Assembly (NCBI GenBank): GCA_016932995.1
Contig: JAFGBU010000013.1
Span: forward strand, 1 to 52,234
DNA: 52,234 bases
Source: Desulfovibrionaceae bacterium
GTDB taxonomy: Bacteria > Desulfobacterota > Desulfovibrionia > Desulfovibrionales > Desulfovibrionaceae
Direction of reading: 5' to 3'
The notes beneath the pieces are model-generated. The model was not told the DNA's origin. It searched no databases and saw only the letters and a list, made by a program, of their open reading frames with translations. Within the stretch, counting starts at the first letter, position 1, and every line of letters begins with the position of its first letter. The translations under genes were made by a program, and so were the position numbers. Positions 3,840-50,942 of this stretch are shown here, one piece after another.

Positions 3840-4154
3840 GTGAACACGCTCCTTAAGCTGGTCTGCCAACAGGCCCAGATGTCGCAATGGGACTTCTGGC
3901 CCTTTGGCCCGGGCTACGGCCAGAACTGGACCCTGACCCTGGCCAAGGCCGCGTACGTGGCCGTGATCCTAGGCCTGATCCTGCTCTTTTTGCGCTTTTT
4001 GTTCGGCCCAAAGGGCGTTTTCAGGGACAAGGAGCTCGAGCGCGAGGCCGAGGAAGAGAAAAAAAAGGCCCTTGAAGAGCTTGAACTCGACTTCGCGGCG
4101 GGCAGGATCGAGGAGTTCGAGTACCGGCTGAAGAAGAGGTCCCTGAAAAAATGA
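3840..4154 (+). CDS. Small single-pass membrane protein with charged SHOCT-like tail
   Basis: 104 residues from a GTG at 3840, preceded by AAGGAA. One membrane segment (AAYVAVILGLILLFLRFLF, about residues 37-55) is followed by a highly charged coiled region and a tail, ELDFAAGRIEEFEYRLKKRS, that resembles the SHOCT oligomerisation motif. An internal ATG at 3879 lacks a clear ribosome site. The stop overlaps the start of the HD gene (ATGA), so they form a coupled pair. Function unknown. Confidence 0.7.
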   Translation: MNTLLKLVCQQAQMSQWDFWPFGPGYGQNWTLTLAKAAYVAVILGLILLFLRFLFGPKGVFRDKELEREAEEEKKKALEELELDFAAGRIEEFEYRLKKRSLKK

Positions 4155-7568: not shown

Positions 7569-8732
7569 ATGCTGATGCCCAGGGCCGAGTTCCTGCTCAC
7601 CACCGGCGGCGGCGGGCCGCTCAGGGAGGCCGATGTCCCGGCCGAGGTCCGGGTGCCCCTGGCCTGCCACCGGCCCCTGGTCTCGGCGGGCGACGCGGTC
7701 CTGGCCGGCCAGAAGCTGGCCGAGGCCTGCGAGCCGGGCGTGGGCGACGCGCACTCGCCCCTGGCCGGGGTCGTGGCCGAGGCCGGGGAGTGCGTGATCG
7801 CCGTGCGCGGCGAGGGCCAGGGCCAAATCAAGGCCGCGGACCTCTCCGGGCTCAGCGGCCAGGACCTGGCCGAGGCCCTGCGCGGGCTGGGCCTGGACAC
7901 CGCCGGGCTGGTGAAGGCCGAAATTCTGGTCGTCAACGCCGCGCCCCCGGACATCGGGGCCTGCGCCCCGGAGCGGCTGCTCTCCCTGTTCCCGGAGACC
8001 GTGGCCCTGGGCCTTGAGGCGGTCAAGTCCGTGGTCGCCCCGAAAAGGACCGTCCTGGTCATGGCCCACGGCCTGGGGGCCGCGCTCAAGGGCTGCGAGA
8101 TGTTCACGGTCCCGCCCTATCACCCCAACGGGGTGGACGGGCTCGCGGCCAGGGCCGCCCTGGGCCGGAAGGCCGAGGGCGCGGTCGTGGTCTCGGCGGC
8201 CGCGCTGTTCCACGCCGGCCGGATAATGGAGACCGGCCTGCCCCTGACCGAGATATACTTCAGCCTGGGCAACGGCCTGGTCAAGGCCGCGGTGGGCTCG
8301 CCCCTGGCCGATATCCTGCCCCTGGCCGGGCTGTCCGCCGGGGAGAACGACAGGCTGATCCTGGGCGGGCTGCTCCGCGGCCAGGCGGCCCGCTCCCTGG
8401 ACCAGGGCCTGCCCAAGGGGACCCTGGCCCTGTGCCTGGTCCCGCACGGGGCCTACCCCCCGGTGGCCGACGCGCTGTGCCTGAACTGCGGGGAGTGCGT
8501 GCTGCGCTGCCCGGCCAGGATAATGCCCAACATGATCAGCCGCTGCGCGGAGTTCAGGCTCTTCGAGCGGGCCAGGCAATACCACCTGGAGGCCTGCGTG
8601 GAATGCGGGCTGTGCGGCTATTTCTGCCCTTCGAGGAGGCCGATTCTGCAATACATCCAGCTGGCCAAGTTCGAGCTCGCCGCCCTGGACAGGCTGGCCG
8701 CGGAAAAGGCCGCCCAGGAGGAGGCGTCGTGA
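7569..8732 (+). CDS. rnfC: Rnf electron transport complex subunit RnfC
   Basis: 387 residues, starting at ATG 7569 (a second ATG is two codons later). The protein has the barrel-sandwich-like N-terminus HSPLAGVV that is normal for RnfC, a central NADH/FMN-binding type region, and two C-terminal [4Fe-4S] motifs, CLNCGECVLRCP and CVECGLCGYFCP. RnfC is a cytoplasm-facing peripheral subunit that exchanges electrons with the soluble partner or, here, perhaps passes them towards the cytochrome. It is shorter than proteobacterial RnfC with its long Ala/Lys-rich tail. The stop overlaps the next GTG start. Confidence 0.93.
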   Translation: MLMPRAEFLLTTGGGGPLREADVPAEVRVPLACHRPLVSAGDAVLAGQKLAEACEPGVGDAHSPLAGVVAEAGECVIAVRGEGQGQIKAADLSGLSGQDLAEALRGLGLDTAGLVKAEILVVNAAPPDIGACAPERLLSLFPETVALGLEAVKSVVAPKRTVLVMAHGLGAALKGCEMFTVPPYHPNGVDGLAARAALGRKAEGAVVVSAAALFHAGRIMETGLPLTEIYFSLGNGLVKAAVGSPLADILPLAGLSAGENDRLILGGLLRGQAARSLDQGLPKGTLALCLVPHGAYPPVADALCLNCGECVLRCPARIMPNMISRCAEFRLFERARQYHLEACVECGLCGYFCPSRRPILQYIQLAKFELAALDRLAAEKAAQEEAS

Positions 8733-14053: not shown

Positions 14054-14129
<76 letters not shown>

Positions 14130-37064: not shown

Positions 37065-37139
<75 letters not shown>

Positions 37140-37141
37140 TC

Positions 37142-37216
<75 letters not shown>

Positions 37217-37230
37217 GCATCCCTTTGCGG

Positions 37231-37305
<75 letters not shown>

Positions 37306-45442: not shown

Positions 45443-46549
45443 ATGAAGACATTTCAAATCGTCAATGTCAGGTGGTACAACGCCACGGCCTGGTACGCCC
45501 TGTACCTGAGCCGCCTGCTCGCCGAGGCCGGCCACGAGGTCACGGTCGTGACCCAGCCGGGCACGGACACCGAGCGCCGGGCCGAGGCCATGGGCCTTGC
45601 GACCGCGCCCCTGGACCTGAACACCAACAACCCCCTGCGCCTGGCCCGGACCTTGGGGGACATGGCCCGACTGCTCAGGGCCAAGGCCCCGCAGGTGGTC
45701 AACTGCCACCGGGGCGAGGGCTTCTTCCTCTGGGGGATACTGAAGAAACTCGGCTTTGATTTCAAGCTCGTCAGGACCAGGGGCGACCAGCGCCTGCCCA
45801 AGGCCGACTTCCTGAACCGCTGGCTGCACGGAAGCGTGGCCGACGCGGTGGTGGTCACCAACCGGCGCATGGCCGGGCACTTCCTGGAGCGCATGCGCAC
45901 CCCCCAGGACAAGTTGTGGCTCATACACGGCGGGGTGGACACCCGGGCCTTCGCCTTTGACCCGGAAGGCCGCGAGCGGGTGCGCAGGGAGTTCGGATGG
46001 CGCGACCAGGACCTGGTCGTCGGCCTGTTGGGCCGCTTCGACCGGGTCAAGGGCCAGCGGGAGATCATCGAGGCCGTGTCCATGCTGCGCCGCGAACGCG
46101 GCCTGGACAACCTGGGCCTGCTGCTCATCGGTTATGAGACCTCGCTTGCGGCCTCGGACATCGAGTCCTGGCTCGCGGACTTCAAGGTCCAGGACATCGC
46201 CCGGATCACCGGCAGGCGGCAGGACGTGGCCGCCTGCGTCTCGGCCCTGGACATCGGCGTGGTCGCCTCGCTGTGGTCCGAGGCCATCGCCCGCTCGGCC
46301 CTGGAGATAATGGCCGCGGACAGGCCGCTGTTGTCCACGGACGTCGGCGTGATGCCCGACCTGCTGCCCGGCCGGGCCCTGGTCCCGGCCGGCGACGCCG
46401 CGGCCCTGGCCCGCAGGCTGGCCGAGGCGATCGAGGACCCGGAGTTCCGCAGCTCCCTGGTCGAGGAGCAGCGCAGGACCATGTCCCAGCTCTCGGGCAG
46501 GGACTTCCTCAAGAGGACGCTCAGCCTGTATCACGGCCTGGGCGAGTAA
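45443..46549 (+). CDS. Family 4-type (GT-B) glycosyltransferase
   Basis: 368 residues from ATG 45443 with AAGGGA ahead. The N-terminal domain has NVRWYNATAWYALYLSRLL and VVNCHRGEGFFL; the C-terminal GT-1 domain has VVGLLGRFDRVKGQREIIEA and the E-x7-E type region SLWSEAIARSALEIMA. It probably transfers a sugar from a nucleotide donor in surface polysaccharide synthesis. It diverges from the GT2 gene across 89 bases and overlaps the MltB-like gene's 3' end by 19 bases. Confidence 0.9.
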   Translation: MKTFQIVNVRWYNATAWYALYLSRLLAEAGHEVTVVTQPGTDTERRAEAMGLATAPLDLNTNNPLRLARTLGDMARLLRAKAPQVVNCHRGEGFFLWGILKKLGFDFKLVRTRGDQRLPKADFLNRWLHGSVADAVVVTNRRMAGHFLERMRTPQDKLWLIHGGVDTRAFAFDPEGRERVRREFGWRDQDLVVGLLGRFDRVKGQREIIEAVSMLRRERGLDNLGLLLIGYETSLAASDIESWLADFKVQDIARITGRRQDVAACVSALDIGVVASLWSEAIARSALEIMAADRPLLSTDVGVMPDLLPGRALVPAGDAAALARRLAEAIEDPEFRSSLVEEQRRTMSQLSGRDFLKRTLSLYHGLGE

Positions 46550-47508
46550 GGGGGCTGTCCGCCGCCCAGGACCCGGTCGATGCCCCTCAACTTGTCGGCC
46601 ACGGCCAGGATGGTGCGCGCATAGGCCTCGGAATGGTTGTAGCGGAAGAGCACGGCGCGCATGCCGTCCTCGTCGAGGTCCCGGGTCCAGCCGTGGCGCT
46701 TCAGGAAGTTGCCGATGCTGAACAGGGCGTCCGCGGCCTTGAACAGGTCCACCCTGCCGTCCCCGTCGCCGTCCACCCCGTAGCGCACGGCGGTGGTGGG
46801 CACGAACTGGCACAGGCCGATGGCCCCGAAGACCGAGCCGGTAATATCCAGGGGGTCCTGGCCGTTGGCCCGGGCGTAGCCGATGAGCGCCTTGAGCTCC
46901 CTGTAGGCCCAGTCCGCCTTGTCCCGCAACCGGCCCTTGAGCCACTCCAGGGTCTCGCCGGGCAGCTGATCCGTGTCCAGGTACGGCCTGATCCGGTCCA
47001 TGTCCCGGCAGGCGGCCATGTTGGCCAGGACCGCCCAGGCCGGATGGTCGCCCATGATCATTCCGGTCTTGGTCTCCACGAGCAGGACCGCGGCCAGGAC
47101 TTCAAGCGGCACACCATAGCGCTGGGCGGCCCGCTCAAAGTCCCCGCGGTGCTCGATCATGTAGACGTAGGCCCTGGCCAGCAGGATGGGGTTCAGGTAT
47201 CCGGAGAGCACCTCCCGGGCCGGGCCGGCGTCCTCGGTCAAGGCCGAGGCCCTGGCCCTGAGCAGGGCGTTCATCTTGCGGGCCATGACCGCGGGGTCGA
47301 AGCGGATCAGGGAGCGGGCGAACAGGTCCCGCACGTAGGCGGAATCCAGGCCGTCGGCCGCCAGCCTGGCCTCGAGCTCCCCCCAGCCCCTGTCGGCCAG
47401 GGCCGGTCCCGGGGTTGCCGGGGCCAGGGACAGGACCGCGGCCAGGGCCAGGCAGGCGATCAGGACCGGGCCGCTCCGGCGCGGGTCACAGCCTGTCCAG
47501 GGGCACAA
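46531..47508 (-). CDS. Lytic murein transglycosylase (MltB-like)
   Basis: About 325 residues from a TTG at 47508, chosen because AGGA lies eight bases ahead; another TTG at 47526 is possible. A Sec signal (VLIACLALAAVLSLAPATPG) is followed by MltB motifs: LLVETKTGMIMG with the catalytic Glu, SVFGAIGLCQFVPTT, and FLKRHGW. An EF-hand-like DGDGDGRVDL binds calcium as in MltB. It cleaves peptidoglycan glycan strands to 1,6-anhydro products. Its 5' end overlaps the end of the dual-CxxC gene, so it is part of the tolC operon. Confidence 0.87.
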   Translation of the reverse strand: MCPWTGCDPRRSGPVLIACLALAAVLSLAPATPGPALADRGWGELEARLAADGLDSAYVRDLFARSLIRFDPAVMARKMNALLRARASALTEDAGPAREVLSGYLNPILLARAYVYMIEHRGDFERAAQRYGVPLEVLAAVLLVETKTGMIMGDHPAWAVLANMAACRDMDRIRPYLDTDQLPGETLEWLKGRLRDKADWAYRELKALIGYARANGQDPLDITGSVFGAIGLCQFVPTTAVRYGVDGDGDGRVDLFKAADALFSIGNFLKRHGWTRDLDEDGMRAVLFRYNHSEAYARTILAVADKLRGIDRVLGGGQPPYSPRP

Positions 47509-47710
47509 AGGCCACTTCCTGGTCAAAGGAATCGTCCAGAAGAAAGGACACCTCCGCGGGGTTCAGGCCGACGCCGCAGGACCTGCAGCGCAGGGCCACG
47601 CGGGTTCAGCCCCTGATGACCACGAGCCGCCCGTTGCAGCGCGGGCAGAGCATGCCCCGGGGCTCGTCCGGCCCGCTCCCCCGGGCCGAGGGCTCGCTGA
47701 AGGGCGTCAC
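47486..47710 (-). CDS. Small dual-CxxC protein with an in-frame TGA: probable selenoprotein
   Basis: 74 codons from a GTG at 47710 that overlaps the tolC stop (GTGA) to a TGA at 47486-47488. Codon 35 is also TGA (47606-47608). Read as one frame, the protein has C22-P-R-C25, then selenocysteine 35, then C42-R-S-C45, and an acidic tail LDDSFDQEVAFVPLDRL. Sequence on both sides of the internal TGA is in the same frame and makes a coherent zinc-ribbon-like domain. A hairpin with a GGUCC loop begins 14 bases downstream of it (see SECIS entry). I recall a family of small dual-CxxC proteins with selenocysteine members in Desulfovibrio-type bacteria; that link needs a search. Other readings are a 34-residue and a 37-residue ORF, or a broken gene. 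Confidence 0.8.
47571..47591 (-). promoter_or_regulatory. Putative bacterial SECIS hairpin
   Basis: Transcript GCGCUGCA-GGUCC-UGCGGCGU: an eight-base stem (with G-U pairs) closed by a loop beginning GGUC. The loop starts 22 bases after the UGA at 47606-47608. The E. coli fdhF element has a UGCA-closed GGUC loop 18 bases after its UGA, and bacterial SECIS loops are found about 16-37 bases away. Confidence 0.7.
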
Positions 47711-49062
47711 TTGGCGCCCAGGTCCGGGTTCTTCACACCCATGGACACATACAGGCTGGACAGGGCGGTCTCGTAGTCGGCCAGGGCCTCGATGAGCTGG
47801 GCCTCGCTGCTGCTGACCCGGGACTGGGCGTCCAGGACGTCCGTGTTCGTGCCCACCTGGGCCTGGTACCTGGCCTGGGCCATGCGGTAGGACTCCCGGG
47901 CCGCGTCCACGGACTTGCGGGCCACGCCTATCCTGTCCGCGGCCTCCTTGAGGTTCAGGAGGCTCTCCTTGATCTCGTAGCCGGCGTTGAGCCTGGTCTC
48001 GTCGAGCTGGGCCCTGACCTTGTTCAGGTTCTCCCGGGACTCCTTGTAGCTGAAGTAGGTGCTGCCGCTCTGGAAAAAGGTCCAGTCCAGGCTCAGGCCC
48101 GCGGTCCAGGACTCGGCGCTGGCCGCGTTGTAGTTCCTGCCGCCGTTCACGTCCGGGTCCCCGCCGTACTTGTAGTAGTCCAGATCCGCGGCCAGCTCCG
48201 GATAGAACGCGCTGGCGGTGATGCCCAGGTCCTTCTCGGCGATGTCCACGCTCTTCTTGCCTATCTGGATGTCCGGGCGGCCGACGTAGGCCGTGTCCAG
48301 ACACTGCTTGAGGTCCCTGTCAAAGGGCGGCGAGGTGAGCTTGCCGGTGTAGGTCACCTCGGCCTCCAGGGGCAGGTTGAGCAGGGTGTTCAGCTTGGCC
48401 TGGCAGGTGGACACGTCGTTCTCGGCCTTGAGCAGGTCCTGCTCGGCCGTGGCCAGCTCGACCTCGGCCTGGAGCACGTCCAGCCTGGGCTTGAGCCCGA
48501 CGTCGTAAAACGCGCTGGTGACCTTGAGCTGGGACTTGAGCCGCTCCACCGCGTCCTGGGCGCTCTTCACGTCCATGCGCGCCTTGAGCAGGGCCAGGAA
48601 CTTGGACTGTATCTCCTTGACCAGGGCGAGCTCGGCGTCAAGGAGCTTGGCCTCGTTCTGCTCCTTGGTCAGCCTGGCCTTCTGGTAGCTGGACAGGAGG
48701 TTGAACCCGGTGAATATCGGCTGGTGCAGGTTCAGGTGCAGGGCCCATTCGTCCTGGTCCCCGGCCCCGGCAACCGGCCTGCGGTCCTGGTGGGTCCAGC
48801 CGTACCCGGCAGTGGCCGAGGGAAACATGTCCGAGAGGGCGGACTTGCGGCCGTAGTCCGAGCCGAGCAGGTCGGCCCTGGCCTGGACAATGGTCGGGTT
48901 GGCCTCCAGGCCGCGAAGCACCGCGGCCTCCATGTCGTAAACGGCCTCGGCCGGGGCGGCCTGCTCCGCGACGGCCTGTTCCGCGGCCAGGCCCGGGCAT
49001 GCGGCCAGGGCCAAAAGAACCACCGCCACCAGGACGCGTCCCGCGCCGAAGAATCCGGACAT
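47707..49062 (-). CDS. TolC-family outer membrane efflux protein
   Basis: 451 residues from ATG 49062. A Sec signal (VLVAVVLLALAACPGLAA) is followed by the two repeated halves of the TolC fold, each with long helices; LRGLEANPTIVQARADLLGS, LDVLQAEVELATAEQDLL, NLNKVRAQLDETRLNAGYEI and NTDVLDAQSRVSSSEAQLIE are typical. It would form the outer-membrane exit duct of a tripartite pump or type I exporter; no inner-membrane partner is nearby. It heads a minus-strand run tolC, dual-CxxC gene, mltB. The cysteine in the signal is not in a clear lipobox. Confidence 0.92.
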   Translation of the reverse strand: MSGFFGAGRVLVAVVLLALAACPGLAAEQAVAEQAAPAEAVYDMEAAVLRGLEANPTIVQARADLLGSDYGRKSALSDMFPSATAGYGWTHQDRRPVAGAGDQDEWALHLNLHQPIFTGFNLLSSYQKARLTKEQNEAKLLDAELALVKEIQSKFLALLKARMDVKSAQDAVERLKSQLKVTSAFYDVGLKPRLDVLQAEVELATAEQDLLKAENDVSTCQAKLNTLLNLPLEAEVTYTGKLTSPPFDRDLKQCLDTAYVGRPDIQIGKKSVDIAEKDLGITASAFYPELAADLDYYKYGGDPDVNGGRNYNAASAESWTAGLSLDWTFFQSGSTYFSYKESRENLNKVRAQLDETRLNAGYEIKESLLNLKEAADRIGVARKSVDAARESYRMAQARYQAQVGTNTDVLDAQSRVSSSEAQLIEALADYETALSSLYVSMGVKNPDLGAK

Positions 49063-49201
49063 ATGCTGCTTCGCCTTGTTGGTTCTGTTATCGGACCCGG
49101 TCCCGAACCCGGCCAACTCGCTGCCGGGATTTAACCATTTATCAGGACCGGGCCGTCTCGGCAAGACCCCGGCCCTCCCCGGCGGATGGGAGACCCGCGG
49201 C

Positions 49202-49927
49202 TCAGGCCAGAAAGACCGCCAGGATGCCGGTCAGAAATATGCCGTCAAAGGTCCCGGCCCCGCCTATGGAGATCACCGGGGCGTCCAGGGCCTGCCTGGT
49301 CCGGGGGTTGAACAGGTGCAGGATGTCCGCGCCGATCAGGGTGCCCAGGCTGCCCGAGATGTAGGCCACGTGCGGGGCGACCTCCCCGGGCACGAGCACC
49401 AATGCGGTCAGGGCCGTGACCAGGGGCGGTATGAGCACCGGGATGCCTATGCCCACGCCGGGCACGGGCCTGGCCAGGGCGAAGCACACGGCGCTGACCA
49501 GGACCACGGCCAAAACGGCCCACAAGAAAAACCCGCCCCGGCCGGCCATCTGGACCAGGAAATACAGGGACAGGCCGCAGGGGATCAGGCAGCCGCCGAC
49601 ATTGACCGCGAGCACCTGCTCCTTCAGGGTCCGGGCCTGGTCCGGGTCCGGAAAGGACCCGGGGCCGAAGGGGCCGAACAGGCGCACGGTCCTGACCTTT
49701 ACATCCCTGACCAGGCGCCGGCTCCGGTGCACCGGGATGTTGAGCGTGGAGCCGAACAGGGTGGCCAGAAGCAGCAGGAAGCCCTGGCCCGGGGTCAGGC
49801 CGAGCTTGGAAAAGGCCACGGTGATGATCCCGATCTGGATGAGGATGAAAAAGAAGATCAGGACCAGAAACAGGAGCACCCCGAAAAAAAGCACCGTGGG
49901 CAGGTTGAACAGGGGCCCGCGCATCAT
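49202..49927 (-). CDS. DUF1614 family membrane protein
   Basis: 241 residues from the first of two ATGs at 49927, with GGGAG seven bases ahead. Six or seven membrane segments; the family words [17 protein letters not shown]-like ([20 protein letters not shown]) and [16 protein letters not shown] are present. The family has no assigned function but is widespread in archaea and anaerobic bacteria. It diverges from rfbA across 142 bases, in which GGATAATAAAA (49977-49987) is the only promoter-like patch. Confidence 0.82.
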
Positions 49928-50069
49928 GGACGATCTCCCGGCCTTTGGAATTCGGGCCTGTTGCCATTTGGGCCCGGGGATAATAAAACCCCCGACAGGC
50001 TCACAACAAACCGATAGCGCATGCCGGAGGCGAAGTAAAACGCCCGCCGCGGCGCTGACAGAGGGCTCC

Positions 50070-50942
50070 ATGAAAGGAATAATCCTGGCCGGCGGATCAG
50101 GGACAAGGATGTACCCGCTCACCAAGGTCGTCAGCAAGCAGCTGCTGCCGGTCTACGACAAGCCCATGATCTACTACCCGTTGTCCACGCTCATGCTGGC
50201 CGGGATCCGCGACATCCTGATCATCTCCACGCCCGAGGACCTGCCGCGCTTCAGGGACATGCTCGGCGACGGCGCGCAGCTCGGGCTCAGGTTCTCCTAC
50301 CGGGTCCAGCCCAGGCCCGAGGGCCTGGCCCAGGCCTTTGTGCTCGGCGAAGAGTTCATCGCCAAGGACAGCGTGTGCCTGGTGCTCGGGGACAACATCT
50401 ACTACGGCCAGGGCCTGTCCCGGATACTCCAGGACTGCGCCCGGCTCGAAAAAGGCGGCATCGTCTTCGCCTACCCGGTCAAGGACCCGGAGCGCTACGG
50501 CGTGGTCGAGTTCGACGCCCGACACAGGGCCCTGAGCATCGAGGAGAAGCCCAAGCGGCCCAAGTCCAAGTTCGCGGTCACCGGGCTCTACTTCTACGAC
50601 AACCGGGCCGTGGAGTTCGCCAAGGGCCTGCGGCCCTCGGCCCGGGGCGAGCTGGAGATAACCGACCTGAACAACGCCTACCTCGCCCAAGGCGAGCTTA
50701 AGGTCGAGATACTGGGCCGCGGCTTCGCCTGGCTGGACATGGGCACCCACGAATCCCTGTACAGGGCGGCCGGGTTCGTGCGCACCATCCAGGAACGCCA
50801 GGGGTTCATCATCTCCTGCGTGGAGGAGATCGCCTTCCGCATGGGCTTCATCGACGCGGCCCAGCTCAGGCTCCTGGCCGGCGAGATGCTAAAAAACGAC
50901 TACGGGCGCTATCTCCTGGACGTCCTGGCCGAGGCCGGATGA
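50070..50942 (+). CDS. rfbA: Glucose-1-phosphate thymidylyltransferase
   Basis: 290 residues, GAGGG ahead of ATG 50070. [19 protein letters not shown] is the nucleotidyltransferase signature; [12 protein letters not shown] and [20 protein letters not shown] complete the RmlA fold. It makes dTDP-glucose, the first step of dTDP-rhamnose synthesis, and feeds RfbB and RfbD encoded at 14720-16623. Its stop overlaps the next gene (ATGA). Confidence 0.96.

Follow-up and report, generated by a model that had tools for sequence, protein, structure and literature searches.

A member of the dual CXXC small (seleno)protein family NF041197 with an in-frame TGA between tolC and mltB in a Desulfovibrionaceae genome

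The locus and its neighboring genes

The window, by which we mean the whole stretch of 52,234 nucleotides analyzed here (contig JAFGBU010000013.1 of the Desulfovibrionaceae assembly GCA_016932995.1), carries on its minus strand a small gene at positions 47486 to 47710 that was assigned by translation and profile match to the family NF041197. Its frame of 74 codons opens with a GTG at 47710, closes with a TGA at 47488 to 47486, and includes at codon 35 a further TGA (47606 to 47608, minus strand) that is very probably read as selenocysteine, given its alignment with TGA or Cys codons in relatives. The key residues of the protein are C22, C25, R33, U35, C42, and C45. Two CxxC motifs, at residues 22 to 25 (47636 to 47647, minus strand) and 42 to 45 (47576 to 47587, minus strand), are probable zinc knuckles. 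A preliminary description of this frame had recognized the 74 codons, the paired CxxC motifs, and the TGA at codon 35 without giving a strand; the plus-strand frame over coordinates 47486 to 47710 contains no CxxC. The same description placed the TGA exactly between the two pairs. It does lie between them, but the symmetry is approximate, with 9 residues separating C25 from U35 and 6 separating U35 from C42.

The first codon overlaps the stop codon of the upstream tolC gene as GTGA, the coupling that had been proposed from the sequence. An alternative ATG at 47653 would give a protein of 55 codons, and since the conserved part starts near this ATG, either GTG or ATG may be the true start; an N-terminal extension is also present in several relatives. 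The ordinary list of open reading frames reports the locus as two fragments, one ending at the TGA and one of 37 residues after it, as had been predicted for standard gene callers, and the locus thus provides a worked case of ordinary gene calling splitting a selenoprotein gene in two. The product is small and, judged by eye, probably cytosolic, and no export signal was seen by eye in the window protein.

The upstream gene encodes a TolC-type outer membrane efflux protein (47707 to 49164, minus strand; Pfam PF02321 OEP, 228 bits), and the downstream gene encodes an MltB-type lytic transglycosylase (46531 to 47526, minus strand, as the longest frame; PF13406 SLT_2, 158.6 bits). A DUF1614 membrane protein (49202 to 50137, minus strand; PF07758, 187.1 bits) forms part of the same conserved neighborhood. 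The order typical of the lineage is DUF1614, a MoCF-domain gene, tolC, the selenoprotein gene, and mltB, followed by a glycosyltransferase gene on the other strand. The MoCF gene is absent from the window, where a tblastn search for it was negative and 37 bases lie between DUF1614 and tolC. A TTG within the selenoprotein gene, 3' of its TGA, opens the longest mltB frame and is one candidate start; if it is used, translation of mltB could depend on read-through of the UGA. Elsewhere in the window are a tRNA cluster, Gly(GCC)-Cys(GCA)-Gly(GCC), at 37065 to 37305 (minus strand) and a tRNA-Val(CAC) at 14054 to 14129 (plus strand).

Family membership and selenocysteine decoding

With Cys substituted for Sec, the window protein scored 61.1 bits against the NCBIfam model NF041197, "dual CXXC motif small (seleno)protein" (CxxC_Se_CxxC), which has a curated cut-off of 40, and the match spanned profile positions 1 to 53 of 53. 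A genome-wide profile search that read through the TGA (reported as "1 TGA") gave 51.1 bits for the same gene. Besides scoring above the cut-off, the protein has the two CxxC motifs with Sec or Cys between them and the R-x-U/C motif that mark members of the family. A table in a 2026 review (PMC13188914) lists NF041197 as "hypothetical protein OS_HP3" with the motif RxU and cites Zhang and Gladyshev 2007 (Nucleic Acids Res 35:4952), a paper on the Olavius algarvensis symbiont. The novelty implied by the preliminary description is therefore confined to the member: the family is already catalogued, the gene is an additional member of it, and no new decoding mode is involved. A literature search, with most subscription journals outside its coverage, returned no title of a functional study of the family. 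Its small size and the existence of natural Cys forms make the NF041197 family easy to test.

The source genome (2.48 Mb in 49 contigs, 99.5% complete) contains the complete set of genes for selenocysteine decoding, selA, selB, selC, and selD. It encodes a tRNA-Sec with anticodon UCA, SelB (365.9 bits) and SelA (593.2 bits) on one contig, and SelD (312.8 bits), which has its own in-frame TGA in SVKAAGUAAK. This selD gene (contig C44, positions 48036 to 48968; locus L049) is a second selenoprotein gene in the same genome. The objection that sel genes might be missing, which had been raised against a selenoprotein reading, accordingly fails.

Relatives of the gene are numerous. Among 199 sampled genomes from the same taxonomic family, 168 matched NF041197, 165 of them above the cut-off; within these 165, own genome included, one TGA was found inside the match in 45 and none in 120, part of the latter being read base by base. 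A phylum sample of 395 genomes yielded 112 matches, 88 above the cut-off. Outside the bacterium's own family were 71 of these 88, 56 with a TGA and 15 without, the 15 including a partial match (G554) that does not cover the site. A total of 173 placed rows were read, and 167 fitted a motif demanding Sec or Cys at the site. The six left out of the Sec/Cys counts were L113 and five weak, partial, or probably unrelated matches (L068, L069, L070, L072, and L191). Removal of 13 rows that were duplicates or had short flanks left 154 distinct copies with enough flank, 103 with TGA and 51 with Cys, a split that cannot reveal a third residue because the motif filter demands one of these two.

The main branch comprised 115 distinct copies (66 TGA and 49 Cys). 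Numbered from the site, C-13 was kept in 112 of these, C-10 in 113, and R-2 in 106, while C+7 and C+10, which form the second CxxC, occurred in all 115 but were demanded by the motif. Conservation continued in the same frame after the site, with D+24 in 110 copies, E+28 in 107, and R+38 in 97. The TGA of the window gene thus aligns with a TGA or a Cys codon in homologs that do not end at codon 34, which was the comparison proposed for checking the frame. The Humidesulfovibrio relatives carry TGA and the Pseudodesulfovibrio relatives Cys. A SelB search of 28 genomes gave 26 matches above the cut-off, including all 18 genomes whose family match lacked a TGA (in 4 of these 18, the SelB match extends over no more than roughly positions 1 to 340 of the 581), so that loss of the decoding machinery does not account for the Cys form. 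The two genomes below the SelB cut-off, G006 and G034, have no NF041197 family member at all. A quick tree, built with the site masked from 124 main-branch rows (66 Sec and 58 Cys), requires at least seven exchanges between Sec and Cys, although it is weak because it is based on some 50 columns.

Other searches added detail. A search with a 10-row alignment found 22 loci (12 TGA and 10 Cys), a single-protein scan of genome contigs gave 410 pattern matches with zero relatives confirmed, and a 31-row alignment yielded no usable search pattern. The rows L114 to L132 include a Cys-only group (for example, L116, L118, and L120) that starts with MKCRxC and ends with IIYD instead of DRL; the L116 protein has a main-branch score of 73.3 bits against NF041197. 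A contig filed as Planctomycetaceae (L208) was probably mis-binned: tolC and mltB adjoin its family gene, and the 55 residues encoded there are identical to those of L035 from a Desulfovibrio-type genome.

The SECIS-like hairpin and a sister branch

Downstream of the TGA lies a SECIS-like hairpin (47571 to 47591, minus strand), GCGCUGCAG-GUC-CUGCGGCGU, with a 9-bp stem and, for the hairpin by itself, a free energy of -13.5 kcal/mol. The second CxxC is encoded within it, and its loop is located 23 nt past the UGA, or 22 if the loop is read as GGUCC. A hairpin near the layout of Escherichia coli fdhF, where the spacing is 18 nt, had been noted before and is borne out. The bacterial SECIS model, as given in the legend of Fig. 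2 of the 2026 review (PMC13188914), specifies a loop of 3 to 9 nt, a stem of 4 to 16 bp, a spacing of 16 to 37 nt, a G in the first two loop positions, and an energy of -7.5 kcal/mol or lower; the window gene fits it with a loop of 3, a stem of 9, G as the first loop base, a spacing of 23, and -13.5 kcal/mol.

Taken alone, the window hairpin is unexceptional, being equaled by a fraction of 0.215 of 200 synonymous shuffles. In RNAfold, a 71-nt stretch folded no better than shuffles (z = -0.01), with a best fold unlike the short hairpin, and an Rfam search of 1,601 bases around the gene returned five matches at E ≤ 10 (best E, 2.7) and no SECIS. The significance of the hairpin comes instead from comparison across the family's aligned sequences. 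In a script that considered uninterrupted stems only, the model was satisfied with an energy of -7.5 kcal/mol or better in 69 of 103 Sec copies versus 6 of 51 Cys copies; the remaining 34 Sec copies miss that threshold, and one Sec copy (L141) has no hairpin fitting the model. At the tolC locus, the model was satisfied in 22 of 28 Sec orthologs (a count that includes L100, which has tolC but in which mltB was not found) versus 1 of 17 Cys orthologs, the exception being L205, which carries a strong hairpin. The apical pair stays paired in 40 of the 45 own-family Sec copies through GC, CG, AU, and GU, against a shuffled mean of 23.3 and with none of 500 shuffles reaching 40, compared with 9 of 51 Cys copies (shuffled mean, 10.4), shuffle counts that are optimistic because the sequences are related. 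Nucleotide 24, in the loop, is G in all 45 own-family Sec copies versus 22 of 51 Cys copies. When each Sec copy was compared with its own synonymous shuffles, 43 of the 103 did not fall below 0.05.

The best hairpin was found at a spacing of 22 or 23 in 75 of the 103 Sec copies, and at this spacing the codons of the second CxxC belong to the stem. A second layout, with a spacing of 17, occurred in 11 of the 103 and was seen in a sister branch of the family. The site between tolC and mltB offers an orthologous series of Sec and Cys forms in which SECIS gain and loss can be followed.

The sister branch emerged from 55 rows of the phylum search that scored below the NF041197 cut-off, 53 of them with TGA and often present as a second copy in the same genome. 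From these, 39 were fetched, G035 was added, and G242 was dropped, leaving 39 distinct copies (at about position 4001 in each of L153 to L190 and at 8078 to 8212 in L192). Their pattern is CxxCGGxAxIxGRU-A-x-ARVxC, 37 have TGA and 2 have Cys, and 21 of the 37 Sec copies satisfy the SECIS model. Four sister-branch proteins with Cys in place of Sec scored 34.8, 42.8, 44.6, and 36.4 bits against NF041197, compared with 73.3 and 74.8 bits for two main-branch proteins in the same test, which places the branch at the edge of the known family. The contexts of its genes, named by eye from the sequences, include topA, dnaX-ybaB-recR, and nrfD-type genes. In 3 of the 39 (L165, L169, and L184), all Sec copies, a CxC replaces the first CxxC, and these may represent a third group. 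It is possible, if rather doubtful, that the family as a whole is a zinc-ribbon family displaying Sec at the tip of a hairpin, with two or more Sec branches: the main one of NF041197 and a nearly always Sec sister that would be an undescribed subfamily, with the second-CxxC codons often doubling as SECIS stem in both. Were this true, the double use of the CxxC codons may explain the ready swapping of Sec and Cys.

Proposed function, alternatives, and known systems

The paired CxxC motifs and a profile search against PDB sequences point in the direction of a zinc ribbon. All Pfam matches of the window protein were sub-threshold, to zinc ribbons and the like. The profile search gave the HypA zinc domain (E, 6e-4), followed by zinc-ribbon chains at E values of 0.01 and weaker. 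An AlphaFold model built with 23 sequences has strands at residues 28 to 33 and 38 to 42 and puts residue 35 in the turn, but its confidence is low (pLDDT, 61.5; pTM, 0.37); with a single sequence, the pLDDT was 59.4. Foldseek with the low-confidence model gave no match at E ≤ 0.001, its best being the small zinc-finger protein ZifS (E, 0.095) and then RNA polymerase zinc ribbons. A faint match to MsrB (PDB 3cez; E, 0.55), which also has an R-x-C/U motif, was too weak to use.

A redox or metal role for the selenoprotein, as suggested in the preliminary description, is plausible. SelB and tRNA-Sec(UCA) very probably read the UGA at codon 35 as selenocysteine, directed by the downstream stem-loop. 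The core of the protein would be a zinc ribbon in which the two CxxC knuckles hold one zinc with a beta-hairpin between them, and Sec would sit in the hairpin turn, two residues after the conserved Arg (R-x-U); beyond it come a run of acidic residues and another conserved Arg, at the C-terminal end. The fold would then be maintained by the zinc and the four Cys residues. The exposed selenolate, aided by the Arg of R-x-U, would act as a redox nucleophile whose target may be a protein partner, a small thiol compound, or a peroxide. Cys would do the same job in the many relatives that carry it. We offer this detailed mechanism, a zinc-ribbon protein with an exposed redox selenolate, as a tentative proposal that falls somewhat short of an even chance.

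The most basic alternative is that the gene is a pseudogene or contains a sequencing error, in which case the TGA would either truly end translation or stand in error for a Cys codon. A single-base change turns TGC or TGT into TGA, Cys occupies the position in many orthologs, and the TGA rests on a single assembly. The objection of an error at 47606 to 47608 is answered by recurrence, since 45 of 165 own-family genomes and 56 of the 71 others above the cut-off have a TGA at this codon; in addition, the frame past the TGA is conserved, sel genes are present, and the hairpin found in Sec copies is mostly missing from Cys copies. An error or pseudogene is for these reasons very improbable. As far as can be judged from sequence comparison, the UGA-containing gene very probably encodes a true selenoprotein belonging to NF041197 (OS_HP3), and the earlier proposal of a probable selenoprotein is strengthened by the sel genes, the profile match, the TGA and Cys homologs, and the SECIS comparison.

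Two further alternatives accept the selenoprotein and concern its role. That it works with TolC and MltB in redox control of the envelope or of efflux is suggested by the GTGA overlap and by the repeated occurrence of family genes, in Sec or Cys form, between tolC and mltB, which was seen at 44 distinct loci (27 TGA and 17 TGC or TGT). Of 40 own-family loci with flanks of about 4 kb, 25 had tolC on the upstream side and mltB on the downstream side (24 of 30 with TGA and 1 of 10 with Cys). This order is confined to one lineage, however, and other family members adjoin truA/argJ, recR, or uvrC, or none of the 22 neighbor families searched. The genes from DUF1614 to the glycosyltransferase travel as one block, which suits plain synteny, and the protein shows no export signal by eye. 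Function from neighbors was rejected as a general explanation because the contexts differ between lineages; the association with TolC and MltB looks like lineage synteny, a shared function is not supported beyond that, and the functional link to the envelope genes drawn in the preliminary description is improbable. A sensor, in which Sec binds the metal or serves as a redox switch whose selenenylsulfide with a ligand Cys releases zinc, would account for four conserved Cys residues and a Sec or Cys within 55 residues and for the slight resemblance to HypA's zinc domain in the profile search. The tip of a zinc-ribbon hairpin lies far from the metal, and residue 35 is in the hairpin turn of the low-confidence model. 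If the ribbon is right, Sec at the tip would be away from the metal, favoring an exposed redox selenolate over a metal ligand, and we regard the sensor as unlikely, though less so than the envelope role.

Compared with known systems, the window protein agrees with NF041197/OS_HP3 in its full-length match, dual CxxC, R-x-U, and Sec or Cys at the same place, and differs in nothing essential. Ahead of the domain, the window copy carries an N20-type extension (20 residues with GTG as start codon), and it reads CNG, an unusual form, at the place where CGG or CG is found in most members. The DVU_1557 family redox protein (NF045645) is likewise small and Desulfovibrio-type and gives a weak local match to the window protein, but at 14.4 bits this is far under its cut-off of 60, and the window protein does not belong to that family. 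The fdhF SECIS of E. coli (NC_000913) and the window hairpin have in common UGCAGGUC atop a stem-loop in the coding sequence. In fdhF, this is UGCA-GGUC-UGCA at a spacing of 18 nt, whereas in the window the loop lies 22 to 23 nt past the UGA on a longer uninterrupted stem, with SelB binding putative. The zinc ribbons of RNA polymerase (RPB9/RPC10-type), LysW, and the HypA zinc domain would resemble the family in having two CxxC knuckles joined by a beta-hairpin; the similarity scores are weak, and the selenoprotein family would differ from these ribbons by the conserved Sec or Cys at its predicted hairpin turn.
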